Part shown: in pieces, positions 21,601 to 49,424 of the stretch
How the letters are laid out: every line of letters starts with the position of its first letter
Numbering within the stretch: position 1 is the stretch's first letter
Source of the DNA: an uncultured Bacteroidota bacterium
Lineage (GTDB): Bacteria > Bacteroidota > Bacteroidia > UKL13-3
DNA: 64,000 nucleotides
Assembly (NCBI GenBank): GCA_903910445.1
Contig: CAIVZR010000056.1
Span: forward strand, 1 to 64,000
Direction of reading: 5' to 3'
Notes under the pieces: model-generated
Databases searched by the model: none
The model's input: the letters and a program-made list of their open reading frames with translations, nothing else
Told to the model about the DNA's origin: nothing
Position numbers and translations under genes: made by a program

Positions 21601-23775
21601 TATTCAAAAACTTTTAGCAATGGAAAAATTGATTCATTATTCGAGTTAAAACTTTCGGCTAAAGAAATTAAGGCAATGAATATTTCCAATGATGCCAAAC
21701 TACTCTATTTCACAAATGCTGACGATGATATTATAGTTTATGAAATCAATAGTGGAAAGGAAATTTTCAGATTTAATAAATACAAAATAAAAGGCATGGA
21801 TGGATTGGTAGTTCATGATATAATAAGTGCCAGAGAAGGCTATGAAATAAAGGGCACCGCAAATTATACTCAAGGCAATGAAAGTGGATTCCGACAAGTA
21901 CGTTTAACCATGAATGAGCAGATGCCCATTGCATTCCAATCACCCGAAATTCGATTGACCCGAGAAAGCAAAAATGGACTTGACGCCATGCGATTTGAGC
22001 TGGATACTAAAATAATGAGTATCACTAAAGATGAAAAATATCTTGTATACATGAAGAAGTTGGAATTGTATATTTTAGATATCAAAACAGGCAATACCAT
22101 ATTCAATCGCGATAACCCAATAAAGGGAAGTATTACACAGGCTTGCTTTACCCAAAATCAGAAGTACTTCATCATTGGATTTGAAGATGGCACGATTGAA
22201 GTTTATAATTTTCAAAAGCAAGGTAGGCAATATAATTACGGCAATGAATCCTATGGATTATATCAAGAGACCGTTTTCAAGGCCAATACGAATGGGATTG
22301 AATCGATGGCGATAAGTGGCGCATGGCTTATAGTGAAAGGCACGAATGCGTTCACTACTTTATTTGATATTGAACATGGCTGGAAAAAGGCTATAGATAT
22401 GGATTTCATTAAAGATGAGGATCAAATTTTCATCAATGCATCCAATGAGTATTTCACCACGAAAAATGCATTGAACTATATTGCATTAAAAAAAGACCAG
22501 GTCATATTTCCAATCGGACAATTAGATATCAAACTCAACCGTCCAGATAAGGTTTTAGAGTCAATTCATTCAACCGATACCATGCTGATTCGTTCTTATA
22601 AAAACGCTTATGGAAAGCGACTTCAAAAATTAAAAATAGATACCAATACTTTATCAAACACATTGGAACTTCCAATTGCGGAATTTAAAAATAAATCAAG
22701 CTTGCCTTATAACCAAGCATTGCCCGATTTGAAATTAACCCTAAACACCAGCGATACCAGTGCTTTCATCGACCGAGTTAATGTTTGGGTTAACCAGGTG
22801 CCCATTTGGGGAATGAATGGGTTAAGCATTAAGTCGCGCAAACTGCATTCGTTTGACACTTCGATAACCCTTATATTAAGCAATGGAATTAACCGCATTG
22901 AATGTGCTATAACAAATACCCGAGGATCGGAAAGTAATCATACACCGATAAGCATTAGCTATACCCCTGCGAAGAACATCGAATCAAAAGTTTATTTTGT
23001 AGGTATCGGTATCGACCAATTTGCAAACCCAAAATATAACCTTCGTTATAGCTGCAAGGACATTCGCGATTTATGTGCGAAATTGCGGGAGAAGTATGGA
23101 GAGCAATTAATCATTGACACCCTTTTTAATAAACAAGTGACAGTTTCAAATATCACGGCGCTAAGGGCAAAGCTATTGACGTCCAATGTTGATGACAAGG
23201 TGGTAATTTCCTATTCAGGTCATGGTTTACTCGACCGAAAGTATAATTATATCCTCTCCACCTACGATGTAGATTTTGACCACCCAGAATTAAAAGGGCT
23301 GGCATATGAATCTATGGAGCATTTGCTTGATAGCATTCCTGCCCGTAAAAAACTATTATTAATAGATGCTTGTCATAGTGGTGAAGTGGATAAAGAAGAT
23401 GTGATTGCCATGAACCAAACTTCCGATTCAATGAAACTTACCAAGGGCAGTCAGCTTTTAGAATATACCAATGAACCTTCCCTCGGTTTAAGAAATAGCT
23501 TTGAGTTAATGCAAAATGTTTTTGTGAATGTTGGTCAGAATACGGGTGCAGTAATCATTTCTGCTGCTGCAGGAAATCAATATGCTTTAGAGAATGGTGA
23601 TTTACAAAACGGGGTTTTTACTTATACCATTTTAGAAGCTTTGAACCAATACCCAACTATTAAAATTGGGGCGTTACGCAAAACCGTCTCGGAGCGTGTA
23701 TCCCAACTCACCAATGGATTACAGAAGCCTACCTTCCGAAATGAAACGATGGCCGTGGATTGGGATGTATGGTAA
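18691..23775 (+). CDS. WD40-repeat protein with C-terminal caspase (C14) domain
   Basis: A 1694-residue protein with a signal peptide (about 1-22, ending TIAQ). Residues about 30-1280 carry many WD40/YVTN-type blades (for example GHNGYIHDLCLLPNRRF...DHTIKLWDLQT near 525). Residues about 1430-1690 form a caspase-fold domain: YFVGIGIDQF, catalytic His1511 in YSGHGLLD and Cys1561 in LLIDACHSGE. Both dyad residues are intact. The propellers probably form a recognition scaffold and the caspase domain cleaves a partner. With its signal peptide it is expected in the periplasm or outer envelope, unlike cytoplasmic metacaspases. It is upstream of a T9SS-secreted giant protein on the same strand, but 207 bp and a promoter-like element separate them. 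Confidence 0.9.
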   Translation: MFLKIKNYFLLLFLIQVLPTIAQNITVSTSKPSTQMIDKVAASPSGKLLAVLTLQNTSIKVLDAFDGSFLYNYPIDERVEGVFFTDETTLLLIHKFKMELLDIKNHQVIDSINLQDVIVSTDFNLAYKVIAITSLNSVKTFSCSNQKFVALGTREAPYCTYVSISLDGRFFAIQEKQKVNIYHSRSMKLESSIYIENLEGFILTENYLVALSSNPISYRYYTFEGKSLSTAYEIKYLGDLNSFSLQASQDFILLKNYNKLILAGADGSQTILGTDNNYYRLNYSARSRLFVIWNWDAIKIIDSEGMLHQEITASQLDDEIYDDHLATGKSISLSPNQIKFSDSKHKHEYVITASSANSIFYSEHWVAIVKSNASVEIRDIKQENLIYSIQLPRIPSSLLLDEKNLAVLLADNMDSTLYFYSLSDGIKRKLIKDSSRITALAYDGTNLYWGNNRGDISVAKLNADEFKIHNKVNVFGDGISKIICLEESLIITSYGRMVDVKKDLSDVLSTPFLMVGHNGYIHDLCLLPNRRFMLSSALDHTIKLWDLQTHRLIQSYDLDTLQALHLRAPSNTQFWFYGTNFVRGNIQDSTIISNTLQPKLELVVQSPNSTSPLKLVISPNGTLLATVDNNTVKVRDLKSGFLLSEFSTPSKLVNGITFTAQGNSLAVATGDGVTLFDPYSGEIVRNIDLSKRGRSIHDVEAYQNRIVAMNVHGWHNPLILHKNSGLSLGELFYYTEAEPDKYLLDFKCTLDGSRLVTYGSNYLKVFDLNHSHLFSIPLAGKGKTNTWVVDLMSLSYDGKYILFNDFDKYSNLKIANLNTGKILKEHRGGIGAIGKDGNYIYDIGDSRLCMRNIFNDSIQLLAVHFDGIINNVVYNAVAEIFAVSDNWGNIKILEGRTGALLSEINRWDQYTYNVIASNDGSRLLFNNRSGLYTIDLSSLEREAIPAENYPLSGVFSPNSDKLFFRNKTTIYSKTFSNGKIDSLFELKLSAKEIKAMNISNDAKLLYFTNADDDIIVYEINSGKEIFRFNKYKIKGMDGLVVHDIISAREGYEIKGTANYTQGNESGFRQVRLTMNEQMPIAFQSPEIRLTRESKNGLDAMRFELDTKIMSITKDEKYLVYMKKLELYILDIKTGNTIFNRDNPIKGSITQACFTQNQKYFIIGFEDGTIEVYNFQKQGRQYNYGNESYGLYQETVFKANTNGIESMAISGAWLIVKGTNAFTTLFDIEHGWKKAIDMDFIKDEDQIFINASNEYFTTKNALNYIALKKDQVIFPIGQLDIKLNRPDKVLESIHSTDTMLIRSYKNAYGKRLQKLKIDTNTLSNTLELPIAEFKNKSSLPYNQALPDLKLTLNTSDTSAFIDRVNVWVNQVPIWGMNGLSIKSRKLHSFDTSITLILSNGINRIECAITNTRGSESNHTPISISYTPAKNIESKVYFVGIGIDQFANPKYNLRYSCKDIRDLCAKLREKYGEQLIIDTLFNKQVTVSNITALRAKLLTSNVDDKVVISYSGHGLLDRKYNYILSTYDVDFDHPELKGLAYESMEHLLDSIPARKKLLLIDACHSGEVDKEDVIAMNQTSDSMKLTKGSQLLEYTNEPSLGLRNSFELMQNVFVNVGQNTGAVIISAAAGNQYALENGDLQNGVFTYTILEALNQYPTIKIGALRKTVSERVSQLTNGLQKPTFRNETMAVDWDVW

Positions 23776-23845: not shown

Positions 23846-23982
23846 TATTCGAAGGAACGATAAACTAATCTTAATACCTCTAAAGTGATTTTTAGTGATT
23901 TTTGCAATTAGCATTTATTACCCTATACATTTATTTGCGATCAGCCTTCAACAAACTATTTGACCCTAGCGACCAACTTATT

Positions 23983-26900
23983 ATGATGAAAAAATTTCTA
24001 CCCTTCGTCCTATTACTTTCCTTTTTTATTCTATTAGCACTTACGAGGCCATTTTCGAATAGCTCCAACGAGCCTTTGAAGACGGCTGAAAATGCAACTG
24101 AAAAAAATCCGATCACCAAGCCTTCAAATATTAATAATGAGGTAAAACAAAAATCAATAGCAACTAGCACTATTGCTGAAGACGGCTTTTCAAAGGAGCA
24201 TGAATTAGAGATGGAGGAGGCTGAAACGGATGGTCCTATGGAAGCCATCGAACAAGATTTCAATCGCACGATGAATCCTACTTTGGGCCGCCCTACGCGT
24301 GAAAATCTGGTTGGAATCCTGCAACAGATGAGCGCCAATTCAGTTCTCAATTCACCTGGAAGCAGCACCACGCCTTGGATAGAAAGAGGCCCCAATAATG
24401 TTGGAGGTAGAACTCGTGCCATCATGGTGGATCCAAACGATGCAACTAAAAAAACCATTTGGTCGGCAGGTGTCGATGGAGGATTATGGAAGACAACGGA
24501 TATCACAGCTACGAGTCCAAACTGGGCTCCTATTAATGATACGTTCGCAAATCTCGCGATTACCTGTATGGCATATGACTCACTAAATAGTGATACGATG
24601 TATTTTGGAACTGGAGAAGGCTGGTATAATTCAGACGCAGTAAGAGGTTCGGGGGTATGGCGTACAACCAATGGCGGGACAACTTGGTCTCAACTAGGGA
24701 GCACTACGGGTTCATCCTTTAATTATATTAATCGAATTGCTGTGCATCCTACCAACCATAAAGTTTATATCGCCACAAAAAATGGAATTTATATTTCATC
24801 CAATGCGGGTGGTACATTCACAAATATTGGCTATACAGGAAAGAATGTTTCCGATATAGAAATTGCTTATAGTGGAAGAGTGCATATTGGAATCGGTGAT
24901 TATACAATTACAAGGGAATACCATTATACTGATAACGATGGAACTACATGGGACCCAACGGCTACTAATTTTAATACCATTGTCACCGGGGGCCGTCGTG
25001 TGGAATTAGCCATAGCACCATCAAATAACGCCACCTTGTATGCATTGGTAGGAACCACGGGTGCAATACAAGGCATCTTTAAATCGACCAATAGTGGTAT
25101 AACTTGGGCTGCAACAGCCGCTACGGCATGGTTCGATCAAAACTGCGCATCTTCATCATCGGATTTTACTCGAACACAATCATGGTACGACCTTGCCATT
25201 GCTGTAAATCCAACGGATGAGAACCATGTGATGATTGGTGGAGTAGATATTTTAAAAACCACAAACGGAGGAACAAGCTGGTCACAAATAACTAGTTGGT
25301 GGGGAGGATGTAGTCGCCAATATGTTCATGCCGATCAGCACGTAATTTATTATGAACCAGGAAGTAGTACCGTAGCTTATTTTGGCAATGATGGTGGTAT
25401 TTGGAGAACAGCAACTGCAACTGCAACCACCCCTACAATTGCCGCTAAGGGCAATAACTATAATGTGACTCAATTTTATTCTTGTGCCATTCATCCTACC
25501 AGTGGTTCAAATATTTATTTGGCAGGGGCTCAGGATAACGGCACACAGCGATTCACCACTGCAGGAATGAATGCAACCACCGACGTAACTGGAGGTGATG
25601 GAGCACTTTGTTTTATCGATCAAGCAAGTCCTGCCTATCAGATTGCGTCTTATGTTTATAATAATTTCTACTTATCAACCAACAGTGGCGCATCATTTAC
25701 TGGCACATTAATCAATGACAATGTAACCGGTAGATTCATTAATCCTGCAGGTTATGATAACAACTTACATATTCTATATACTGCCCGATCGACAAGTACA
25801 ATTTATCGAGTGAAAACAGTAACTGGAACACCTTCTACTGCTACCTCTGTAACAATAACAGGCATGGCTGCTATGGCCAGCTTTTTCAAAGTCTCACCAT
25901 ATACTACCGCTTCATCTACTGTTTTTATTGGTAATGAAGCAGGCAAAGTTTATAAAGTTACCAATGCCGATAATACACCTACAATCACTGATATTAGTGG
26001 TACAAGCCTACCTGCTGGAACTATTTCAGGTATTGATATTGGTGCGAATGAAAATGAACTCGCAGTCACATTTTTCAATTATGGAGTTACATCCGTTTGG
26101 TATACTTCCAACGGAGGTACCTCTTGGGTGAGTAAAGAAGGTAACTTACCTGATATGCCCGTTCGATGGGTATTGTTCAATCCGAATAATCGTGATGAAG
26201 TATTGCTTGCCACCGAGCTTGGTGTTTGGGCCACTACCAATTTCAGTGCTACCACACCTTCATGGATTACTTCTAATGCAGGCTTAGCCAATGTTCGGGT
26301 TGATATGTTACAATATCGCAGCTCTGATAAAATGGTTTTTGCTGCTACTCATGGTCGTGGCCTATATTCCAATGTGGGCTTCTCTCCTGCGCCAATACCC
26401 AATTTTAGCGCGTCCTTATTACAGCCATGCATCAATCAAACAGTGACATTAAGTGATGCAAGTGCATTGAATCCAACTTCTTGGTCGTGGAGTATTACGC
26501 CATCGAGCTATAGCTTTGTTGGAGGTACTACAGCAAACTCTCAAAATCCACTGGTGCAGTTTACAGCCCCAGGAACAAGCTATAGTATTACACTCGCCGC
26601 CACCAATTCATTTGGAAGTAATAATATCACCAAATCAAATTATATCACCACCATTCCTGCGATAACAAGTAATACCATCAGCGGCACGCAAGCGGTATGT
26701 TTGGGTATTGCACCTACTTTGTTCAGTGGCTCACAACCGGCTGGCGGCGCATCTGCAGTGAATTCAGGTACGAAGGTGAATGAGGAATTTAGTGGAACAC
26801 TAACACCTTCGGGTTGGAATTTAGTATTGAATCAAAATACATTACTTATAGCCGACACGCTCAATAGTTATATCCGCGGTGGAACCAAAGGGGATATCAT

Positions 26901-29900
26901 GGCGAATAATTTCAACGTATCCGCTACAAGCAGAGCACAGATGAATACCAAAACATTTACAGCTATTGTATCACCTGAGCAATTGAATTTTGATGTTGCT
27001 CATGCAACCTATACTGGCTACAGCGATTCCTTAATCATTCTCACTTCTAGTGGTGCAACTTTCACCCGTTTGGCAGCTTGGGGATCGGCACAAACGGTTG
27101 ACACCATCAATGGCATTACCACTGCTGCGGCGCAGACTTCGGTGTTTGTTCCAACTGCAACACAATGGTGTAAAAAATCAGTAACATTACCTGCAGGTAC
27201 AACACAAGTGCGATTTGAATTTTATTCTGGTTTTGGAAACGAATTATATATCGACCGAGTTCTTATTGATAGTTTTGCATTGCCTATTACTTACCAATGG
27301 ATTAAGAGCACCACCTCTGCCACCACAGGATTCAGTGCAGCGGCAGGTTCTAGCACCTCTAAAGATTATTCATCGGCAGCACTAAGCAATAACACCTGGT
27401 TCCGTCGAATTGTAAATTCAGGATCGTGTACTACAGATACTTCTTCGGCAATTGCTATCACTGTTAATAGTTTACCCACCGCAAATATCACTGCTGGAGG
27501 TGCTACTACTTTTTGTCAAGGTGGAAATGTTACACTCAATGCCAATACTGGAAGCGGTTTGAATTATCAATGGCGTTTGAATAATGCTAATATATCTGGT
27601 GCTACCGCTGCTAGTTATGTAGCATCTGCAAGTGGTGTTTATAAAGTAGTTGTTACCAATAGTAATGGCTGTATCGACTCTTCAAACACGATTACGGTTG
27701 TTGTAAATGCGTTACCAAGTGCAACAATTACACCCGCAAGTGCAATCACTTTTTGTCAAGGAGGCAGTGTGGTATTGAATGCAAATACGGGTGGGGGACT
27801 TACTTACCAATGGCGTAAAGATGGGGCAAATATTAGCGGAGCAACCAGCGCATCTTATACAGCAAGCACTTCGGGAGCATACAAAGTAATTGTTACCAAT
27901 GCTAATGCATGTTATGATTCCTCTTCTGTGGTAAATGTGGTAGTGAACTCCTTACCATCAGCTACAGCAACTGCTGCAAGTGCCACCACTTTTTGCCAAG
28001 GCGGAAGTGTAATAATTAATGCAAATACGGGTAGCGGACTTACCTATCAATGGAGAAAAGACGGTGCAAATATTTCAGGTGCCACTGCATCAAGTTATAC
28101 CGCAACAAGCAGTGGTAGTTATAAAGTGGTTGTTACTAATTCGAGTAGTTGCACTGATTCATCAAGTGCTATTTCAGTAACTGTAAATGTATTACCAAGT
28201 GCAACAATTACACCCGCAAGTGCAATCACTTTTTGCCAAGGAGGCAGTGTGGTATTGAATGCAAATACGGGTGGGGGACTTACTTACCAATGGCGTAAAG
28301 ATGGGGCAAATATTAGCGGAGCAACCAGTGCTTCTTATACAGCAAGCACTTCGGGAGCATACAAAGTAATTGTTACCAATGCTAATGCATGTTATGATTC
28401 CTCTTCTGTGGTAAATGTGGTAGTGAACTCCTTACCATCAGCTACAGCAACTGCTGCAAGTGCCACTACTTTCTGTCAGGGCGGAAGTGTTGTCATCAAT
28501 GCCAATACAGGTGGTGGACTCACCTACCAATGGCGAAAAAATGGTGCGAATATTTCAGCCGCCAACTCGCCTAGTTATACAGCAACCACTAGTGGCAGCT
28601 ATAAAGTGGTTGTAACCAATTCCAATAGTTGTTCTGATTCATCAAGTGCCATTGTGGTAACAGTAAATACCTTACCAACAGCAACAGCCACTGCTGCTAG
28701 TACAACCACTTTTTGTCAGGGAGGTAGCGTTGTTCTAAATGCGAATAGTGGTAGCGGACTTACCTACCAATGGCGTAAAGATGGAGTGAATATTAGCAGT
28801 GCTACAAATATTAGTTTTACGGCGAACACAAGTGGGAATTACAAAGTAATCGTGAGCAATTCCAATGGTTGTATCGACTCTTCAAATGCGATAACAGTTA
28901 CTGCAAATGCATTACCAACGGCCACAATTACTCCTGCAGGAGCCACAACTTTCTGTCAAGGCAATAGTGTTTTGATTAATGCCAATACAGGAAGCGGATT
29001 AAATTACCAATGGAGAAAAGATGGAACCAATATTAGTGCTGCCACCTCATTTAATTACTCCGCTTCTGCCGCTGGTGTTTATAAAGTAATCATAACCAAT
29101 AGTAATGGTTGTATCGATTCTTCAAATGCAGTTACTGTAATAGTAAATTCATTGCCAAGTGCGAGCATCACTCCTGGAGGCGCTACTACATTTTGCCAAG
29201 GTGGTAGTGTAACACTTTCGGCTAATAGCGGAAGCGGTCTTAACTATCAATGGAGAAAAGATGGAATTGATATATCGGGTGCTACTGGAATATCATTTAA
29301 CGCGAGTGTAAGTGGCAACTACAAAGTGGTAGTCACCAATACCAATGGATGTATTGATTCATCGAGTGCCTTAACGGTAGTAGTGAATGCACGCCTAGGA
29401 GCTACTATTACTGCCAATGGTTCGCTTAGCTTTTGCCAAGGTGGAAGTGTTATGCTTAACGCAAACACTGGAAGTGGTTTAAGCTATCAATGGAAGAAAA
29501 ACGGATTGAATATTAGTGGAGCTAGCAGCGCAAGCTATGCTGTTAATAGCGCAGGCAATTATACTGTCGTTGTAAATAATGCTTCTAATTGTTCCGACTC
29601 TTCAACTGCAGTAACAGTAGTAGTGAATCCTTTACCAAATGCAACAATTACACCTACAGGCGATACTATATTCTGTATTGGAGGTAGTGTTATTTTAAAT
29701 GCCAATGCAGGAACAAACTTATCCTATCAGTGGAAGCTGAATGGTAATAATATCAGTGGTGCGAATGCAATAAATTACACCGCAAATAGCGCAGGTAGTT
29801 ATCAGGTGGTAGTAACTAACGCAAATGCATGCAAAGATTCATCGAGAGTAATCACTGTTACTGTGAATCCATTACCTATTGCTCCTATCATTACATTGAA

Positions 29901-30327
29901 TGGTTTAAAACTCACCACTACCAGCACAGGAAATTACCAATGGTTCAGAAATGATACAGCCATTTCAGGAGCTACGATTAATAACTATGATATTACTCAA
30001 AAGGGAACATATAAATTACGAATTACCGATGTGAATGGCTGTTCAGCAATTTCAAATAGTATCATCATAAGTAATGTTGGTATTCGATCGGGCAGCATCG
30101 ATTTTCCTTTCTCCGTATATCCAAATCCTGCCGATAATATTATTATCATCGAAGGAATTAGTGTTGATGAAACAGAGGTTTCGTTTATGATTATCAATGC
30201 CCTTGGCGAAATTGTTAAGGTTGGAAATATCACCAAACAAAAAACCGAAATCGAAATTAGTGATTTAGCCAAAGGAGTATATCTCGTGAGAATTGGCGAC
30301 CGAATAGAGAAGTTTGTTAAAGAATAA
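23983..30327 (+). CDS. Giant T9SS-secreted protein: BNR/sortilin-like propeller, ten 80-aa Ig-like modules, sorting domain
   Basis: A cell-surface or secreted protein of about 2114 residues. The start at 23983 (ATGATGAAAAAATTT) is preferred over upstream 23902 because it gives a proper signal peptide (MMKKFLPFVLLLSFFILLAL). After a low-complexity acidic linker, residues about 125-800 form VPS10/BNR-like propeller repeats (GGLWKTTD, GVWRTTNGGTTWSQL, LKTTNGGTSWSQI). A PKD-like domain follows (NFSASLLQPCINQTVTLSDAS), then a jelly-roll-like region, then ten Ig-like modules of exactly 80 residues (27472-29871) and one shorter module. The C-terminus (FSVYPNPADNIIIIEG ... KGVYLVRIGDRIEKFVK) is a type A T9SS sorting domain. 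Likely an adhesin or large surface glycan/protein binder; there is no catalytic motif. Confidence 0.88.
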   Translation: MMKKFLPFVLLLSFFILLALTRPFSNSSNEPLKTAENATEKNPITKPSNINNEVKQKSIATSTIAEDGFSKEHELEMEEAETDGPMEAIEQDFNRTMNPTLGRPTRENLVGILQQMSANSVLNSPGSSTTPWIERGPNNVGGRTRAIMVDPNDATKKTIWSAGVDGGLWKTTDITATSPNWAPINDTFANLAITCMAYDSLNSDTMYFGTGEGWYNSDAVRGSGVWRTTNGGTTWSQLGSTTGSSFNYINRIAVHPTNHKVYIATKNGIYISSNAGGTFTNIGYTGKNVSDIEIAYSGRVHIGIGDYTITREYHYTDNDGTTWDPTATNFNTIVTGGRRVELAIAPSNNATLYALVGTTGAIQGIFKSTNSGITWAATAATAWFDQNCASSSSDFTRTQSWYDLAIAVNPTDENHVMIGGVDILKTTNGGTSWSQITSWWGGCSRQYVHADQHVIYYEPGSSTVAYFGNDGGIWRTATATATTPTIAAKGNNYNVTQFYSCAIHPTSGSNIYLAGAQDNGTQRFTTAGMNATTDVTGGDGALCFIDQASPAYQIASYVYNNFYLSTNSGASFTGTLINDNVTGRFINPAGYDNNLHILYTARSTSTIYRVKTVTGTPSTATSVTITGMAAMASFFKVSPYTTASSTVFIGNEAGKVYKVTNADNTPTITDISGTSLPAGTISGIDIGANENELAVTFFNYGVTSVWYTSNGGTSWVSKEGNLPDMPVRWVLFNPNNRDEVLLATELGVWATTNFSATTPSWITSNAGLANVRVDMLQYRSSDKMVFAATHGRGLYSNVGFSPAPIPNFSASLLQPCINQTVTLSDASALNPTSWSWSITPSSYSFVGGTTANSQNPLVQFTAPGTSYSITLAATNSFGSNNITKSNYITTIPAITSNTISGTQAVCLGIAPTLFSGSQPAGGASAVNSGTKVNEEFSGTLTPSGWNLVLNQNTLLIADTLNSYIRGGTKGDIMANNFNVSATSRAQMNTKTFTAIVSPEQLNFDVAHATYTGYSDSLIILTSSGATFTRLAAWGSAQTVDTINGITTAAAQTSVFVPTATQWCKKSVTLPAGTTQVRFEFYSGFGNELYIDRVLIDSFALPITYQWIKSTTSATTGFSAAAGSSTSKDYSSAALSNNTWFRRIVNSGSCTTDTSSAIAITVNSLPTANITAGGATTFCQGGNVTLNANTGSGLNYQWRLNNANISGATAASYVASASGVYKVVVTNSNGCIDSSNTITVVVNALPSATITPASAITFCQGGSVVLNANTGGGLTYQWRKDGANISGATSASYTASTSGAYKVIVTNANACYDSSSVVNVVVNSLPSATATAASATTFCQGGSVIINANTGSGLTYQWRKDGANISGATASSYTATSSGSYKVVVTNSSSCTDSSSAISVTVNVLPSATITPASAITFCQGGSVVLNANTGGGLTYQWRKDGANISGATSASYTASTSGAYKVIVTNANACYDSSSVVNVVVNSLPSATATAASATTFCQGGSVVINANTGGGLTYQWRKNGANISAANSPSYTATTSGSYKVVVTNSNSCSDSSSAIVVTVNTLPTATATAASTTTFCQGGSVVLNANSGSGLTYQWRKDGVNISSATNISFTANTSGNYKVIVSNSNGCIDSSNAITVTANALPTATITPAGATTFCQGNSVLINANTGSGLNYQWRKDGTNISAATSFNYSASAAGVYKVIITNSNGCIDSSNAVTVIVNSLPSASITPGGATTFCQGGSVTLSANSGSGLNYQWRKDGIDISGATGISFNASVSGNYKVVVTNTNGCIDSSSALTVVVNARLGATITANGSLSFCQGGSVMLNANTGSGLSYQWKKNGLNISGASSASYAVNSAGNYTVVVNNASNCSDSSTAVTVVVNPLPNATITPTGDTIFCIGGSVILNANAGTNLSYQWKLNGNNISGANAINYTANSAGSYQVVVTNANACKDSSRVITVTVNPLPIAPIITLNGLKLTTTSTGNYQWFRNDTAISGATINNYDITQKGTYKLRITDVNGCSAISNSIIISNVGIRSGSIDFPFSVYPNPADNIIIIEGISVDETEVSFMIINALGEIVKVGNITKQKTEIEISDLAKGVYLVRIGDRIEKFVKE
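27472..29871 (+). repeat. Ten tandem 240-bp coding repeats
   Basis: Ten consecutive in-frame units of exactly 240 bp, each encoding an 80-residue Ig-like module of the pattern LP-A-I/A-x-FCQGGSV-LNANTGSGL-YQWRKDG-NISGA ... YKVVVTN---C-DSS-AVTVVVN. Length is conserved without a single indel. Modules 2 and 4 are almost identical in DNA: 27712-27985 versus 28192-28465 differ at three positions, all synonymous. This points to recent unequal crossing over or gene conversion of a two-module (480-bp) block. Confidence 0.95.
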
Positions 30328-38668: not shown

Positions 38669-39115
38669 CTAAGAAAGTAATTTCTGGCGGAGGATGAATT
38701 CGTACTGTTCGTTATCCCTTTTAATTTTTTGTGATGCTTCGTAATTATCGTAAGCATCTTGTATTAGTTTCTTTAGTTCTTCGGCAACATAAGGCTTACG
38801 TACATACTGATATATTTTTCCTTTGTTTACTGCTTCAATTACCGTTTCCATATCGGTATATCCGGTAAGAAGTATACGCACCGGATCGGGGTAATCTTTC
38901 ATTACCTCTTCCAAGAACTCAACACCCGTTTTAATTGGCATACGTTGATCGGTAATAATCACATGAATCTTATTCTTCTCTAGAAGAAGTTTTCCTTCAT
39001 CGGCCGACTCGGCGATAAAGACTTCAAAATCGATACGGAAATTGGCTTTGAATGAAACTAAATTGTTTCTTTCATCATCCACGTAAAGTACTTTTATTTT
39101 AGGTTTCTCGCTCAT
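38669..39115 (-). CDS. Stand-alone response regulator (REC only)
   Basis: A 148-residue receiver protein: acidic pair DDE near residue 12, phospho-Asp in VIITDQRMPIKTG (about 58), Thr in RILLTGYTD, Lys in YVRKPYVAEEL, and a short C-terminal coiled helix (QKIKRDNEQYEFIL). There is no output domain. The DxRMP...RILLTG(Y/F) subtype also occurs in the receiver-kinase at 43207-44298. The start is 54 bp from the divergent ThiF-like gene, so it is probably a partner of that signalling cluster, acting by protein interaction or as a phosphate sink. Confidence 0.88.
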   Translation of the reverse strand: MSEKPKIKVLYVDDERNNLVSFKANFRIDFEVFIAESADEGKLLLEKNKIHVIITDQRMPIKTGVEFLEEVMKDYPDPVRILLTGYTDMETVIEAVNKGKIYQYVRKPYVAEELKKLIQDAYDNYEASQKIKRDNEQYEFILRQKLLS

Positions 39116-39147
39116 AAAACGGTATGTATATTCAATGTAAATTATGC

Positions 39148-39155
39148 TATATTTG
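39148..39155 (+). promoter_or_regulatory. Bacteroidota -7 element (TATATTTG) of the ThiF-kinase operon
   Basis: Exact TAnnTTTG whose last base is 15 nt before the ATG at 39170, giving a very short leader. It lies in the 54-bp divergent gap facing the response regulator. Confidence 0.5.
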
Positions 39156-39169
39156 CTTTTTTATTAGTG

Positions 39170-40282
39170 ATGTTCCAAAACAAATATAGCGCTTCCATTC
39201 ACAAAAGTAATAAAATATCGCAAAATTTCGCGCCCTTGTTTTTTCGTATTGCAAGTGAGGATGACCTCTTTTATCTCGATAGATTAATCCAATCGCATCC
39301 AGAGATTTGCATTATTGATGAAATCAAAAGTCAGCTTCGCGATTTAGTCAAGTTGCGAAACCCTTCGAAAAAACTCAACGAAGATGAGATCAATTCCTTG
39401 ATATTGAGCCATATTAACGAAACAAATATTGACGAATATGGAGTATGGGTTTATTATCCTTGGTGTAATAAATTAGTTCATCTTTTAGATGAAGGGGAGT
39501 TTGTAGAAGTAAGAACCAACAGAAATAAAAATAAGATTACTGCTGAAGAGCAGTCTCAATTAGCTACAAAAATTGTGGGTGTGATTGGGCTTTCCGTTGG
39601 GCAATCGGTATCAGTTACGATGGCCATGGAACGTTGCTTTGGTGAACTTCGCATTGCCGATTTTGATACTCTAGATCTTACGAATTGCAATAGAATTCGA
39701 ACTCCGGTTTCAAATTTGGGTTTGCCCAAAGCGGTGATTGTAGCTAGAGAAATTTCAGAGATAGACCCCTTTCTTACTGTAAAATGTTATTTAGATGGTA
39801 TTACTCCTGAGAATATAGACGATTTCATGACGAAGGATGGCAAGTTGGATGTGCTGGTAGAAGAATGTGATAGTGTAGAAATAAAAATTGTTAGTCGATT
39901 CAAGGCCAAAGAACATCGTATTCCAGTAGTGATGGAAATGAGTGATCGTTGTATGATTGATGTGGAGCGATACGACTTAGAGCCTGATTTGAAGATGTTT
40001 CAAGGTAATATTGAGCACCTCGATTTAATCAATATCAAGGATTTAAATCCTCAACAAAAGATGGCATACATGTATCCAATGGTGAGTGGTGATAATGTAT
40101 CAATGCGACTCAAGGCATCTGTTGGAGAGATGGGAAAAACCTTATCTGCATGGCCTCAATTGGCATCTGCAGTAATTCTGGGGGGAGGCGCAAGCGCCGA
40201 TGTTGTGCGCAGAATTTTACTCGACCATACCCGAATTTCGGGAAGGTTTTATTTTGATATTGAACAAACCATAGGAAAATAA
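39170..40282 (+). CDS. E1/ThiF-like adenylyltransferase
   Basis: A 370-residue protein. Residues 1-120 are an uncharacterised N-terminal region. An E1-like Rossmann domain follows from about 134: nucleotide loop VGVIGLSVGQS (137-147), Asp164/Asp166 in RIADFDTLD, Arg175 in NCNRIRTP, Lys187 in GLPKAVIV, and the Mg-site region DVLVEECDSVEIK (about 235). These are the ATP-binding residues of ThiF/MoeB/E1 enzymes that adenylate a carboxylate. No CxxC zinc site or obvious catalytic Cys loop of MoeB is seen. Related E1 domains occur fused to nitroreductases (Rv1355c type), but that part is absent here. The GTG at 39167 is possible, but the ATG at 39170 is preferred. It is the first gene of an operon with a GNAT-like enzyme and kinases; its substrate is unknown. 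Confidence 0.85.
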   Translation: MFQNKYSASIHKSNKISQNFAPLFFRIASEDDLFYLDRLIQSHPEICIIDEIKSQLRDLVKLRNPSKKLNEDEINSLILSHINETNIDEYGVWVYYPWCNKLVHLLDEGEFVEVRTNRNKNKITAEEQSQLATKIVGVIGLSVGQSVSVTMAMERCFGELRIADFDTLDLTNCNRIRTPVSNLGLPKAVIVAREISEIDPFLTVKCYLDGITPENIDDFMTKDGKLDVLVEECDSVEIKIVSRFKAKEHRIPVVMEMSDRCMIDVERYDLEPDLKMFQGNIEHLDLINIKDLNPQQKMAYMYPMVSGDNVSMRLKASVGEMGKTLSAWPQLASAVILGGGASADVVRRILLDHTRISGRFYFDIEQTIGK

Positions 40283-40365
40283 TTAAAACTTGTTTTGAGA
40301 ATGTGTTCCATTTTTATAATTTGCACGCAACTTGAAAACAAATAACTATTTTTTAGCACACAGAG

Positions 40366-41082
40366 ATGATTAGAATTAGAGCTTTTCGGGCTATAGATGA
40401 ACCTCAGACCTGCAATAGGTTTTTGGAGGGACACCGAAAGGTGCTCGAGGAATTCAATTTGGAGAATATCACCACCAATACACCTAAGTGGATAAGCCAT
40501 CCGCAAACATATGTAGTGATTGGAGAACTTGATGGAGATTTGATTGGAGGAATCCGTGTACAATTGGCAGATGGAGATTTTCCATTGCCTGTAGAAGATG
40601 CTGTTGGGCATTTTGATGCAAACATTCATAAATTGGTCGAAAAATATAGAACAGACGTGGGAACAGGTGAGCTTTGTGGACTTTGGAATTCTAGAAGGCT
40701 ACCTCCAAACTTGGGGATTACCGTTCTGTTATCCATTGCTGCAGTGTCCATTTGCGACCAACTAACCATAAAAAACCTTTTTGCAATTTGTGCGGGATAT
40801 ACTTTAGCGGGTGCACGTCGATTGGGCTTTGAGATTGAAAAGTCGGTTGGAAATAATGGAGAATTTACTTATCCAAATTCTAATTTTGTGGCGAGGGTTT
40901 TAAGCATGAATTGTATTACTTTAGCATCCTCCAATGTGCAATATAAAGGTGAGATGTTGGATTTAAGAGCTGACCGTAATTTCAAAAGAATTTTGCAAAC
41001 TTCACAAGAGCCTATTCCTATTGAATACGATCTTATATTGAAGAATATCACTAGTGACATATTAAATGGTACTAAAAATTAA
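40366..41082 (+). CDS. GNAT/autoinducer-synthase-like acyltransferase
   Basis: A 238-residue protein with the layout of LuxI/FeeM-like GNAT acyltransferases. An N-terminal RIRAFRAIDEPQTCNRF segment is followed by TYVVIGELDGDLIGGIRVQL (beta hairpin with GG-R), then GTGELCGLWNSRRLPPNLG (the place of the LuxI E-x-SR motif), a helix ITVLLSIAAVSICD, LFAICAGYTLAGARRLGF, and a C-terminal TYPNSNFVARVLSMN. Such enzymes transfer acyl groups to amino compounds, and LuxI members make quorum-sensing signals. Similarity is by pattern only. It is 83 bp after the E1-like gene and 6 bp before the receptor kinase, so synthesis and sensing could be coupled. It could instead modify a lipid or peptide. Confidence 0.6.
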   Translation: MIRIRAFRAIDEPQTCNRFLEGHRKVLEEFNLENITTNTPKWISHPQTYVVIGELDGDLIGGIRVQLADGDFPLPVEDAVGHFDANIHKLVEKYRTDVGTGELCGLWNSRRLPPNLGITVLLSIAAVSICDQLTIKNLFAICAGYTLAGARRLGFEIEKSVGNNGEFTYPNSNFVARVLSMNCITLASSNVQYKGEMLDLRADRNFKRILQTSQEPIPIEYDLILKNITSDILNGTKN

Positions 41083-41088
41083 CGAATA

Positions 41089-43203
41089 ATGAGACAAAGA
41101 ATCCTCCTGATGTTGCTGCTCTTCAGAGCGGTTGTTTCATATTCCATACAACCCGTTACTTTTCAAAAGAACGATCAGCCACAACTCATTGGTAAAAAAA
41201 TTGAATATTACGAAGATAAAAAGAGTGATAAAAAAATTGAAGAGATTGCCAATAATGTAACTTTCACTCCCCACGCTAAAGATGTTGCTAATTTCGGACT
41301 TGAAAATTCATCTTTTTGGATTCATTTTCAAATTTTCAATAACTCCGACTTACCCGAATTATTATTGGAGGTAGCCCAACCACAAGAAGATGAGATAGAA
41401 CTCTATACCCGAAATGCTGATGGTAGTTTTATTGTTATAAAGATGGGCGACAAATTGCCTTTCAGCGAACGTAGCTATCGTTTTCCAGCATTTATTTTCA
41501 AGTTACCCCTCTTGCCTGCTGCAACTGGCGACTATTACCTTAGAGTAAAAAATCACGAACAACAACAAGTGCCAATCTATATCGGGGCACCTGATGATAT
41601 CATTAATAAAAATATCAATAGCGAAACCATCATCGCTTTGTATATGGGTATCATCCTCGTGATGTTTCTATATAACCTCTTTTTGTATTTTAGTATTCGC
41701 GACAAATCCTATCTCTATTATGTATCTTATGTAATTACCATTGGTATTACACAAATAGCATTATTGGGATACGCATTTAAATTCTTATGGCCTAATAACC
41801 CATGGTTGCAAAATAATGCAACCTATATCTTTAGTAGTTTATCAGGCATCGCAATTTCAATCTTCTTACAAGACTTCTTAAAAACGCGTATTGTAACGCC
41901 TCGATTAAGCAGAATCATAGATGTATTCGTTTTAGGATATATTATTTGCATACCGATTGCAACTGTTTTCCACCAATATATCACAGGATATTACATGCTT
42001 CAAGTACTCGGAATGGGTGGAGCAGCAATAGCAATTGCAACTGCAGTAATTGCACTTCAGAAGAAAGTTGCTTCAGCAAAATTCTTTCTATTCGCTTGGT
42101 TGGTATTTCTTTTAGGAGTTATCATTTTCGTTTGTAAAGATTACAATATCGTACCATATAATTCATTCTCACTCTATACACTTCCTTTAGGATCGGCCAT
42201 TGAGTTAGTGCTCATCTCCTTTGCTTTGGCCAACCGTATCAATATCTTGAAAAAAGAAAAAGAAGCTTCTCAAATGGAAGCGCTGAGAGCTGCTGAAGAA
42301 AATGAACGCTTGGTATTAGAGCAAAATACAATCCTCGATGCAGAGGTGAAAGAGCGAACTAAAGATTTGCAATCGGCCATGGTTGAATTAAAACGTTCGG
42401 AAGTGGAATTGGTAAATCGTGAGAAGATGTCGTCATTGGGTTTGCTTACTGCTGGTATTGCTCACGAAATTAATAATCCAATTAACTTTGTTTCTGCAAG
42501 TGTATCACCATTAAAACGCGATATCCTCGATATCATCGATTTAATGAATGAGTACGAAACTTTACATGGTGACGGATTTACAAAGGAACGTTTTGAGGAA
42601 ATTGAAAAGATGAAGGAGCGATTGGATACACCATTTGTTGTTGAAGAAATTAATATGCTTCTAAATGGTATTGAAGAAGGAGCAGTTCGCACAGCCAATA
42701 TCGTTCGTGGATTGCAAAAGTTCTCACGCTCTGATGAACATATTATGAAGAATGCCGACCTGATTGATGGCATTGAAAATACATTAACGCTCTTAAGCAC
42801 ACAGATTAAAGATCAAATAACCATTGAAAGAGATTACCAACCAATTCCATTTTTGGATTGCTCACCAGGTAAACTCAACCAAGTGTTTTTGAATATTCTT
42901 TCCAATGCTGTTCATGCTTTGCAGAGCAGTAACAGAAAACAAAAAATCATCACAATTGCTACTTATGTGAAAGATAATTGCATATTCATCAGTATGAAAG
43001 ACAATGGAGTTGGAATTCCCGACAGTGAACATGAAAAGATTTTCGATCCGTTTTATACCACCAAGGAAGTTGGCAAAGGAACTGGCTTAGGATTGTCAAT
43101 TTCGTATGGCATCATCAAAGATCATAAGGGTGAAATCATTGTGAATAGCCGCCAGGGAGCTGGTGCTGAATTTATTTTAAAACTTCCGATTATTACCTAC
43201 TAA
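41089..43203 (+). CDS. 7TM-DISM receptor histidine kinase
   Basis: A 704-residue inner-membrane sensor kinase. A signal peptide or first helix (1-20) is followed by a periplasmic 7TMR-DISMED2 beta domain (about 25-175; FGLENSSFWIHFQIFN, DYYLRVKNHEQQQVPIYIG), seven transmembrane helices (about 182-390), a coiled-coil linker, HisKA with His in AGIAHEINNPINFV (about 465), and HATPase_c with NQVFLNILSNAVHAL, DNGVGIPD and GKGTGLGLSI. DISMED2 domains are thought to bind carbohydrates or other small ligands. It is 6 bp after the acyltransferase gene and 3 bp before a receiver-kinase, so it is the likely receptor of the operon. Confidence 0.93.
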   Translation: MRQRILLMLLLFRAVVSYSIQPVTFQKNDQPQLIGKKIEYYEDKKSDKKIEEIANNVTFTPHAKDVANFGLENSSFWIHFQIFNNSDLPELLLEVAQPQEDEIELYTRNADGSFIVIKMGDKLPFSERSYRFPAFIFKLPLLPAATGDYYLRVKNHEQQQVPIYIGAPDDIINKNINSETIIALYMGIILVMFLYNLFLYFSIRDKSYLYYVSYVITIGITQIALLGYAFKFLWPNNPWLQNNATYIFSSLSGIAISIFLQDFLKTRIVTPRLSRIIDVFVLGYIICIPIATVFHQYITGYYMLQVLGMGGAAIAIATAVIALQKKVASAKFFLFAWLVFLLGVIIFVCKDYNIVPYNSFSLYTLPLGSAIELVLISFALANRINILKKEKEASQMEALRAAEENERLVLEQNTILDAEVKERTKDLQSAMVELKRSEVELVNREKMSSLGLLTAGIAHEINNPINFVSASVSPLKRDILDIIDLMNEYETLHGDGFTKERFEEIEKMKERLDTPFVVEEINMLLNGIEEGAVRTANIVRGLQKFSRSDEHIMKNADLIDGIENTLTLLSTQIKDQITIERDYQPIPFLDCSPGKLNQVFLNILSNAVHALQSSNRKQKIITIATYVKDNCIFISMKDNGVGIPDSEHEKIFDPFYTTKEVGKGTGLGLSISYGIIKDHKGEIIVNSRQGAGAEFILKLPIITY

Positions 43204-43206
43204 GAA

Positions 43207-44298
43207 ATGAGACCTAAAATTTTATATGTAGATGACGAACATCAAAATCTGACGATTTTCGCATCCCTCCTCCGAAAGCAATACGAGGTACTTACTTCAG
43301 TCACGGTTTCTGGAGCTTACGACATCCTTCATGAGCACAAGGATATTCCTATTGTGGTGGCCGACGAAAGAATGCCAGAGCAAAGGGGTATTACTTTTCT
43401 TGAGAATGTTAAAACCATTAATCCCGATTGCATCAGGATTTTATTAACCGGATTCGCGGATAAGGAAGTACTCGAATATGCTATCAATAAATCGGGGATT
43501 TCATTCTTTATTGAGAAGCCGTGGAATGAAACCATTCTTCACATATCGCTTGAAAATGCAATTGAGCTCTATGATTCTCGTCAAATTTTAAGACTCAGAA
43601 ATGTGGAACTTCAAAAAGCGAATGATGCCCTCACACGCTTTACCTATAGCGCTTCCCATGAAATGCGTTCACCCCTCACCAATATACTCGGAATCGTAAA
43701 AGTATCGCGCTTAGATAATGATATAGAAGATCTGAAGAACTATTTCAATATGATTGAATCTTCCGTGATTCATCTCGACGGATTTGTAAAAAACTTAATT
43801 GGATACTATAAAAATGCAGGGATTGATTTGGAATTCCATGAAGTGGATATTCAAAAAATAATAGATGAAATTATTGGCGCATTCAAATTTATTGAAGGCT
43901 CTAAAAATATCACATATAATGTTTCTGTCGAAGGAACAGAGAAGCTCATTTCCGATGCTACCCGTATTAAAATGGTGATGACGAACTTAGTGACCAATGC
44001 CATCAAGTTTCAGAAGAATGATGGAACACCATCTGTCATCAATATACATGTCAATGTTAATGCAAGTGAAGCAAGTATCGTAATTAGTGATAACGGAATT
44101 GGAATAGATGAAGAAGAACAAAAGAAACTTTTCAATATGTTCTATCGCTCCTTACATCCCCGTTCTGGTACTGGAATTGGATTGTTTATTGTAAAAGAAA
44201 CCATCGAAAAGCTCGGAGGCACCATCACCCTCTCTTCACAAAAAGAAGTAGGAACTACCTTCAAAATTTCACTCTTAAATCACCTTGCTAAAAAATGA
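43207..44298 (+). CDS. Receiver-histidine kinase (REC-HisKA-HATPase)
   Basis: A 363-residue cytoplasmic protein. The N-terminal receiver (1-120) has YVDDEHQN, phospho-Asp in VVADERMPEQRG (about 54) and Lys in FFIEKPWNE. HisKA follows with His in SASHEMRSPLTNILG (about 157), then HATPase_c with MTNLVTNAIKFQKN, DNGIGIDEE and GTGIGLFIVKE. A receiver before a kinase allows the upstream 7TM kinase to control a second kinase. It starts 3 bp after the 7TM kinase gene and its stop overlaps the next receiver gene by 4 bp (ATGA), so translation is probably coupled. Confidence 0.92.
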   Translation: MRPKILYVDDEHQNLTIFASLLRKQYEVLTSVTVSGAYDILHEHKDIPIVVADERMPEQRGITFLENVKTINPDCIRILLTGFADKEVLEYAINKSGISFFIEKPWNETILHISLENAIELYDSRQILRLRNVELQKANDALTRFTYSASHEMRSPLTNILGIVKVSRLDNDIEDLKNYFNMIESSVIHLDGFVKNLIGYYKNAGIDLEFHEVDIQKIIDEIIGAFKFIEGSKNITYNVSVEGTEKLISDATRIKMVMTNLVTNAIKFQKNDGTPSVINIHVNVNASEASIVISDNGIGIDEEEQKKLFNMFYRSLHPRSGTGIGLFIVKETIEKLGGTITLSSQKEVGTTFKISLLNHLAKK

Positions 44299-44675
44299 TA
44301 CAGCCTAAGTTTATAATTGTTGATGATAACCCGATTGATTTAATGGTAAACAGGCGTTTGCTACAAAATACCTTCGAGGGTGCTACGGTGAATTCATTTA
44401 ATAACTCCGTTGATGCTGTTGAGTTCTTTAAGAAGAATGGAAATAATAGCGCCGAGTTACCCAATGTACTTTTGCTCGATATTATCATGCCCCGTCTTGA
44501 TGGCTTTCAAGTAATTGAAGAACTCGAAAAAATATTCACTGCAATTCCTTTTAAAATTTTTCTACTATCATCAACATTGGATGATGCCGATTTCGACAAG
44601 GCCAAGGAAAGCCGTTCGGTTCAAAGAATTCTTGGAAAACCATTGGATACCGAGAACCTGAAAACGCTAATCTAA
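44295..44675 (+). CDS. Response regulator (REC only), end of the ThiF-kinase operon
   Basis: A 126-residue CheY-like receiver: IIVDDNPIDLMVNRRLL (acidic pair at 9-10), phospho-Asp in NVLLLDIIMPRLDGF (about 61), Ser in FLLSSTLDD and Lys in RILGKPLDTENL. There is no output domain. The sequence is of a different subtype from the receiver at 38669-39115. The ATGA overlap with the receiver-kinase supports a direct kinase-receiver pair. It ends 3 bp from a convergent lipoprotein gene with no terminator between. Confidence 0.9.
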   Translation: MIQPKFIIVDDNPIDLMVNRRLLQNTFEGATVNSFNNSVDAVEFFKKNGNNSAELPNVLLLDIIMPRLDGFQVIEELEKIFTAIPFKIFLLSSTLDDADFDKAKESRSVQRILGKPLDTENLKTLI

Positions 44676-47867: not shown

Positions 47868-49424
47868 ATGACTAAAATTCAACTGCTTTGGGCCGACGAT
47901 GAAATCGATCTGCTGAAACCACATATCCTTTTTTTAACAGGAAAGGGTTACGAGCTTACCACTGTTACCAATGGGAAAGATGCATTAGAAGAATGCAAGA
48001 AACGAAGCTTCGATGCCATTCTACTCGACGAAAATATGCCTGGCATTAGTGGACTCGAAACACTAAATCAAATAAAAGGCATCAACCCCGATACTAAGGT
48101 AATTATGATTACCAAGAGTGAGGAGGAAAGCATTATGGAAGATGCTATTGGAAGCAAGATTGATGATTATCTTATTAAGCCGGTGAACCCCAATCAAATT
48201 TTACTAAGCTTAAAAAAGATTTTAGATGGGAAACAATTGGTGAGTGAAAAAACCACAAGTAATTATATGCAGGAGTTTCGCCAAATAGGCATGACCATTC
48301 AAGACAAATTGAAATTCCAGGAATGGGCTGAAGTATATAAGAAGTTGGTGTTTTGGGAACTTGAATTGCAAAACAGTCAGGATAAAAGCATGGAGGAAAT
48401 TTTATTAAGCCAAAAAACTGAAGCCAATAATAATTTCGCCAAGTTTATTGAAAAAAACTATGTGAACTTTTTTGTTAAACCCGATGCCGATGCGCCATTG
48501 ATGAGTAATAATATTATGAAGCGTAATGTGTTTCCATTACTCGATCAACCTGATCCGGTTTTCTTTATACTCATCGACAATTTACGATTCGACCAATGGA
48601 AAACCATACAACCTGAACTGGCTACCATTTTTAATTTGCAAGTAGAAGAAACCTACATGAGCATTTTACCTACTGCCACTCATTATTGCAGAAACAGTAT
48701 TTTCAGCGGTTTGCTACCTTCGGAAATGGAGAAGCGTTTTCCTAACCTATGGCAAAATGAGGAAGATGAAGAAGGAAAAAACATGCATGAAGAAGAGTTC
48801 TTGCAAGCACAACTCAATACTTTTAACCGTAAAGACATCAAAACCAGTTATACCAAAATAACCACCTTTGATGCAGGACGCGATTTGGTTGATAACGTGA
48901 ACAATCTCTTTAAAAACAAGTTCAATATCATCGTTTACAATTTTGTAGATATTATTTCACATGCTCGCACTGAGATGAGTGTGATACGTGAATTGGCTGA
49001 TGACGAAGCGGCTTACCGATCGCTTACCCTCAGTTGGTTCCGTCATTCGCCCTTATTCGAGGCACTTCAGAAAATTGCAGAGAAAAAAGTGAAGCTGGTG
49101 ATTACAACCGATCATGGAAGTGTAAGAGTGCAGAATCCCGTAAAGATTATAGGAGATAAGAACACCAATAGCAATTTGCGTTATAAAACGGCCAAGAACT
49201 TGGCTTTCGATAAAGAAGAGGCATTTGAAATTAAGCACCCACAAGATGTATCCTTACCCATTTTGCACATGAGCAGCACCTATGCATTCGCACGTAATAA
49301 TGATTTCTTTGCATACCCCAATAACTATAATTATTACGCTAACTATTATCGTAATACTTTTCAGCATGGTGGTATCAGTATGGAGGAAATGATTGTACCG
49401 TTTGTGGTTATGCAGAGCAAATAA
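47868..49424 (+). CDS. porX: PorX, T9SS response regulator with PglZ domain
   Basis: A 518-residue orphan response regulator needed for type IX secretion in Porphyromonas and related bacteria. The receiver (1-120) has LLWADDEIDLL, phospho-Asp54 in ILLDENMPG and Lys104 in YLIKPVNP. A helical linker leads to a PglZ/alkaline-phosphatase-like domain (about 200-515) with metal-site motifs FFILIDNLRFDQW, LVITTDHGSVRV and FQHGGISMEEMIVPFV. Full length. PorX works with kinase PorY and sigma factor SigP; neither is in the window. Its presence fits the three T9SS cargo genes here. Confidence 0.95.
   Translation: MTKIQLLWADDEIDLLKPHILFLTGKGYELTTVTNGKDALEECKKRSFDAILLDENMPGISGLETLNQIKGINPDTKVIMITKSEEESIMEDAIGSKIDDYLIKPVNPNQILLSLKKILDGKQLVSEKTTSNYMQEFRQIGMTIQDKLKFQEWAEVYKKLVFWELELQNSQDKSMEEILLSQKTEANNNFAKFIEKNYVNFFVKPDADAPLMSNNIMKRNVFPLLDQPDPVFFILIDNLRFDQWKTIQPELATIFNLQVEETYMSILPTATHYCRNSIFSGLLPSEMEKRFPNLWQNEEDEEGKNMHEEEFLQAQLNTFNRKDIKTSYTKITTFDAGRDLVDNVNNLFKNKFNIIVYNFVDIISHARTEMSVIRELADDEAAYRSLTLSWFRHSPLFEALQKIAEKKVKLVITTDHGSVRVQNPVKIIGDKNTNSNLRYKTAKNLAFDKEEAFEIKHPQDVSLPILHMSSTYAFARNNDFFAYPNNYNYYANYYRNTFQHGGISMEEMIVPFVVMQSK

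Follow-up and report, generated by a model that had tools for sequence, protein, structure and literature searches.

The locus at positions 38669-44675 of the window, i.e. of the whole 64,000-nucleotide stretch of Bacteroidota DNA analysed here, raises the question of why two biosynthetic enzymes are encoded directly in front of a membrane-bound sensor kinase. To our knowledge, the chemical signals of Bacteroidota are poorly known. A preliminary description had suggested that an E1-like enzyme adenylates a carboxylate, that an acyltransferase then joins it to an amine, and that the kinase senses the product. We regard the cluster as a strong candidate for a chemical signalling system of Bacteroidota that has not yet been described, although the order of the chemical steps has to be revised and the enzymes turn out to have characterised relatives.

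The cluster comprises six confirmed open reading frames. RR0, a single-domain receiver of 148 aa (38669-39115, minus strand; Pfam Response_reg, 1.6e-15), is divergent from five head-to-tail genes on the plus strand. These encode an E1/ThiF-like enzyme (39167-40282, with a GTG start or an ATG at 39170; Pfam ThiF and NF005901), an N-acyltransferase of 238 aa with a predicted FeeM/LuxI fold (40366-41082; AlphaFold2 model and structural matches), the 7TM-DISM sensor histidine kinase HK1 of 704 aa (41089-43203; Pfam 7TMR-DISMED2, 7TMR-DISM_7TM and HisKA/HATPase), a receiver-histidine kinase of 363 aa (43207-44298; REC-HisKA-HATPase according to Pfam) and a single-domain receiver of 126 aa (44295-44675; Response_reg, 1.9e-13), whose gene overlaps that of the receiver-kinase by 4 bp. 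The successive spacings of 83, 6, 3 and -4 bp agree with the earlier gene calls. The divergent intergenic region (39116-39166, from ORF coordinates and sequence) is 51 bp long if E1 starts with the GTG at 39167, and 54 bp long, the value given previously, if it starts with the ATG at 39170; many relatives retain this divergent layout. Neither a DNA-binding output domain nor an exporter gene was found within the cluster, all receivers being single-domain or fused to kinases. Elsewhere, the window encodes a protein of 1694 aa that is rich in WD40 repeats and has a caspase-like domain (Peptidase_C14) at its C terminus (18691-23775), a protein of 2141 aa that combines PKD and Ig domains with a sorting tail for type IX secretion (23902-30327), and a PorX-like protein with receiver and PglZ domains, the architecture of the type IX secretion response regulator (47868-49424).

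The cluster is a real, conserved enzyme-plus-receptor module. We compared 140 loci, i.e. 60 from genomes that share the phylum of the window and mostly also its class, and 80 named loci from an E1 profile search, the two sets partly overlapping. In 133 of the 140 the enzymes have an HK1 orthologue nearby on their own strand, three further loci are truncated by contig ends, and four have no HK1; gene order and linkage, on which the earlier proposal depended, are thus conserved in relatives. The four exceptions are a locus with a remote acyltransferase (L142), a locus labelled Blastocatellia in which an E1-oxidase fusion is found beside a GNAT-domain protein and no kinase (L161), a locus without acyltransferase (L217), and one combining an E1-oxidase and a remote acyltransferase with no kinase (L222). 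Two other loci (L101 and L137) only seemed to lack the acyltransferase, an impression caused by shadow ORFs in their GC-rich DNA. A locus labelled Azovibrio (L151) has a Bacteroidota-type cluster and may stem from a mislabelled bin. Removal of near-identical copies and restriction to loci with an intact kinase gene left 119 non-redundant loci, 69 with an E1-oxidase fusion, 45 with E1 alone and five without a detected E1. The gene order is E1-GNAT-HK1 in 89 loci and GNAT-E1-HK1 in 25, and the gaps among these genes have a median of 6 bp, 96% being no longer than 100 bp. Thus, the order of the enzymes has been shuffled while the linkage was kept, which argues for selection on the gene set. Moreover, as a genome encodes only 0-5 7TM-DISM proteins, the adjacency of HK1 is not explained by abundance.

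Acyltransferase and kinase are also inherited together. Among 58 relatives the acyltransferase and a full-length HK1 orthologue, defined by a score of at least 430 bits, occur in the same 26 genomes and neither occurs in the other 32 (Fisher 4.5e-17, phylogeny ignored), the next best score among the 32 acyltransferase-less genomes being 276 bits; in one genome (G003) the HK1 orthologue is split over two contigs. Presence differs within six genera, and the two genes are always present or absent together. Across 295 genomes of the class, 52 have both, three only the acyltransferase, one only HK1 and 239 neither (Fisher 4.9e-53, phylogeny ignored). Three of the four discordant genomes (G528, G566 and G374) are so at contig ends, leaving G503 as the only real case. 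For acyltransferase and HK1, the co-occurrence search proposed in the preliminary description returns joint presence or absence in 58/58 relatives and 291/295 class genomes. The partial distance-correlation between enzyme and sensor beyond shared ancestry is weak (0.13-0.26) and not diagnostic, the acyltransferase tracking the kinase domain more.

The E1 gives an indication of the chemistry. Its match to the NCBIfam family NF005901 ('Rv1355c family protein') covers the N-terminal half of the profile, positions 3-340 of 722, at E=6.5e-133, and it shares 39% identity over 358 aa with an Rv1355c protein of Mycolicibacterium. Its score of 444.5 bits is below the full-length curated cut-off of 476, because the second half, a flavin oxidase, is missing. 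Rv1355c is TrzS, which catalyses the ATP-dependent cyclisation of N-acyl tryptophan and, by means of the fused flavin oxidase, the subsequent O2-dependent desaturation to N-acyl tryptazolones (PMC12856293). The active site of the window E1 is intact, the ATP-site residues D165, N175, R176, K188 and D235 being invariant in 19 homologues. TrzS needs an Asp in its ThiF domain, D217 in M. smegmatis (PMC12856293), of which D235 is probably the counterpart. The window E1 has the ThiF-type adenylating/cyclase half of the family and a neighbouring N-acyltransferase (40366-41082) with a predicted FeeM-like fold; judged by sequence, it corresponds to the cyclase half of the Rv1355c/TrzS family, the flavin oxidase half being absent.

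For the acyltransferase, sequence searches of Pfam, NCBIfam and PDB gave no significant family match. The Pfam FeeM family PF21926 is hit with E=0.045 and 14 bits, below the cut-off of 27, so that it cannot be counted as a member, and no FeeM match was found among 44 homologues at E 0.01. Its AlphaFold2 model, built with 44 homologues, has a mean pLDDT of 93.9, and in Foldseek FeeM comes first and BjaI third. In VIA-align, FeeM reaches Z 18.0 (176 residues, 2.5 A), LasI 16.5 and BjaI 15.8. Since Z 16.6 is attained, over a shorter span, by an ordinary GNAT as well, it is mainly coverage and Foldseek rank that single out FeeM and AHL synthases among the GNATs. The modelling against LuxI and FeeM called for earlier thus yields a three-layer GNAT fold which, as predicted, is of the FeeM/AHL-synthase type, and E102, W107, Y169 and P170 are invariant in the 44 homologues. 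The likeness to FeeM and the LuxI/BjaI synthases lies in this predicted fold, whereas identity is about 12% and there is no sign of SAM or homoserine lactone chemistry. TyzA of the tyrazolone pathway is likewise reported as closest to FeeM and BjaI (PMC10404671). A Rhodococcus protein encoded beside Rv1355c is a remote relative in profile comparison (163 columns, P=2e-5, probability 77%). On a Streptomyces plasmid (L224:4914-6712), a GNAT gene is overlapped by that of a single-domain E1 belonging to the same family (41% identity), with no kinase beside them; direct profile comparison of that GNAT with the Bacteroidota acyltransferase revealed no homology.

The step at the carboxylate varies between relatives. 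In most of them a flavin oxidase is fused to E1. An oxidase homologue, which might act in trans, was found neither in the window genome nor in 16 other E1-only genomes, whereas the same search was positive in 4/4 fusion genomes (22 genomes were searched, one of which, G107, has no such E1, leaving 17 E1-only genomes). In three loci E1 is missing and its slot between acyltransferase and kinase is taken by a methyltransferase, a SAM methyltransferase in two (L099:8755-9519 and L131:7147-7914) and an ICMT-type enzyme in the third (L134:7703-8344), i.e. by two unrelated types. E1 and both methyltransferase types could all neutralise the carboxylate of an N-acyl amino acid, either by ring closure or as a methyl ester, and would thereby give a neutral, membrane-permeant product.

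HK1 has the DISMED2, 7TM, HisKA and HATPase architecture according to Pfam and its model. The sensor model (residues 1-400, window 41089-42288; pLDDT 90.4) has a periplasmic domain that matches the periplasmic domain of RetS (3jyb) and also carbohydrate-binding modules. In a Foldseek search the whole sensor model also hit human TMEM87A and Wntless, with E values between about 6e-4 and 8e-4 (weaker than the RetS match), suggesting a common arrangement of a beta-sandwich plus 7TM bundle. HK1 shares periplasmic DISMED2, 7TM and kinase with the RetS/LadS-type 7TM-DISM kinases, but it is operon-linked to biosynthetic enzymes, has distinctive 7TM residues and belongs to a clade of linked kinases that is separated, with support 0.886, from 11 unlinked 7TM-DISM proteins. 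The clade-specific invariant residues N196, Y208 and W337 sit in the 7TM bundle, probably in its cytoplasmic half as far as the predicted topology goes, and may have more to do with passing on the signal than with binding. In the relay proteins, phosphotransfer residues are conserved: D56 and K107 of RR0 are each found in 101/101 homologues, D53 and H151 of the receiver-kinase in 103/103 and 102/103, and D62 and K115 of the downstream receiver in 66/66. Past its receiver fold RR0 carries a C-terminal tail, EF-LRQ-L (E139, F140, L142, R143, Q144 and L146), each residue of which is present in 94-99 of 101 homologues; the tail is a possible docking motif. At some loci an RR0-related receiver with PAS and kinase domains replaces the receiver-kinase downstream of HK1.

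Based on these findings we propose that the acyltransferase would N-acylate an amino acid from acyl-CoA or acyl-ACP, and that E1 would adenylate the carboxylate of the N-acyl amino acid and close the ring to a 5(4H)-oxazolone. Both activities of the preliminary description are kept, but their order is reversed, because by analogy with TrzAS and TyzACB the acyltransferase would act first (PMC12856293, PMC10404671). Since the window genome has no flavin oxidase, the ring product would stay saturated, whereas in most relatives the oxidase domain fused to E1 would desaturate it. The product, neutral and lipophilic, or a ring-opened form of it would then exit the cell or enter the membrane and be bound by the 7TM-DISM kinase, and HK1 would phosphorylate the single receivers and the receiver-kinase, relaying the signal to a target outside the cluster. 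Homology argues for N-acylation and ATP-dependent cyclisation by the enzymes of the locus, and we consider it quite likely that the module makes an N-acyl oxazolone. Conserved linkage and co-inheritance suggest that the product is the ligand of HK1. We marginally favour a chemical signalling module in which the enzymes make an oxazolone and HK1 senses it; taken jointly, production of an N-acyl oxazolone and its perception by the module's own kinase have about an even chance. The idea of making and sensing a compound thus survives with its gene order and its GNAT/FeeM/LuxI fold, and without its order of reactions, and its enzyme half has characterised relatives.

Enzymes and kinase could also be coupled in the opposite direction, and this is the main rival: kinase and phosphorelay would detect an outside cue, e.g. 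a glycan or envelope stress, and control the synthesis of an oxazolone that serves as metabolite, antibiotic or membrane lipid. The resemblance of the HK1 periplasmic domain to the RetS sensor and to carbohydrate-binding modules means that the ligand could be a glycan, which counts against a self-made ligand; moreover, oxazolone production is antibiotic-inducible in some proteobacteria, and the role of oxazolones is open (PMC12856293). However, there is no DNA-binding regulator among the single-domain or kinase-fused receivers of the cluster, no kinase is reported with TrzAS and TyzACB, so that synthesis needs none, and the layout matches phcBSRQ, where the ligand is the operon's own product. 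We regard control by an outside cue as rather unlikely. Less likely still is that N-acyl amino acids are activated or capped for transfer to a protein, lipid or amine, the kinase sensing a modified envelope component or a precursor. An E1 without oxidase, as encoded in 45/119 non-redundant loci, could pass an adenylate or azlactone to a nucleophile, and oxazolones are reactive, their ring being opened by acid and alcohols (PMC12856293), but the cluster shows no gene for an acceptor protein, a carrier or a conserved transferase.

Two readings can be set aside. The ThiF domain and weak PADLOC E1-E2 matches (E 5e-6 or weaker, 17-23 bits) might point to E1-based ubiquitin-like conjugation or anti-phage defence. 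We rejected this as very improbable, since the NF005901 match is far stronger (E=6.5e-133) and the partner genes are missing, with no E2, JAB peptidase or ubiquitin-like protein among the six proteins and no PADLOC match for the other five. That the genes are chance neighbours with no functional coupling might be argued from the commonness of two-component genes in Bacteroidota, but this is refuted by the conservation data, i.e. adjacency in 133/140 loci, linkage kept through shuffled gene order and co-variation within genera, and we give it practically no credence.

If a self-made oxazolone is indeed sensed by HK1, Bacteroidota possess an autoinducer circuit built on an enzyme of LuxI/FeeM fold, and the swap between E1 and methyltransferases suggests a modular way of varying the signal. 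In its broadest form, i.e. widespread cell-cell signalling in Bacteroidota by signals that are N-acyl oxazolones, or probably methyl-capped N-acyl amino acids in certain lineages, and that a FeeM/LuxI-fold acyltransferase and a carboxylate-capping enzyme produce and a dedicated 7TM-DISM kinase perceives, this proposal stands just short of an even prospect. As the module occurs in the cultured genera Pedobacter, Chitinophaga, Daejeonella and Mucilaginibacter, it offers a genetic system in which the role of oxazolones becomes testable. Among them, Daejeonella lutea DSM 22385 (L155) carries an E1-oxidase and Chitinophaga eiseniae (L160) E1 alone.

The preliminary description knew of no characterised system of this composition, which holds for the whole combination but not for its enzyme half. 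Our searches of the papers accessible to us, specific ones and a broader one, returned no paper on the combination, which is not proof of novelty. The closest relative of the enzymes, TrzAS (Rv1356c-Rv1355c) of Mycobacterium, likewise pairs a ThiF-type cyclase of the same family with an adjacent N-acyltransferase, but its cyclase carries the flavin-dependent oxidase half that the window E1 lacks, and its reported neighbours are c-di-GMP turnover genes, not a 7TM-DISM kinase (PMC12856293). The TrzAS authors noted that oxazolones resemble signal molecules and proposed signalling, calling the role of these compounds a major open question and naming no receptor, and their text mentions neither kinase nor receptor (PMC12856293); the conserved, dedicated HK1 is a candidate receptor for N-acyl oxazolones. 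The N-acyl tyrazolone pathways TyzACB and OxzAB also combine a FeeM/BjaI-like acyltransferase with a ThiF cyclase for the same predicted chemistry, but have a separate or fused oxidase, a different ThiF subcluster and no reported sensor kinase (PMC10404671). For the arrangement as a whole the nearest parallel is Ralstonia phcBSRQ, which consists of a synthase, a sensor histidine kinase, a receiver-plus-kinase protein and a receiver without DNA-binding domain (PMC8578825), the order also seen in the window. The phc operon contains neither acyltransferase nor E1, and its methyltransferase PhcB makes a hydroxy fatty acid methyl ester (PMC8578825), whereas the window cluster encodes no methyltransferase and only a few relatives do. 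As the synthase differs, the locus is not a member of the Phc type; by its gene order as described, rather than by kinase homology, it may nevertheless work like phcBSRQ, in which the fatty acid methyl ester produced by PhcB is sensed by PhcS (PMC8578825).
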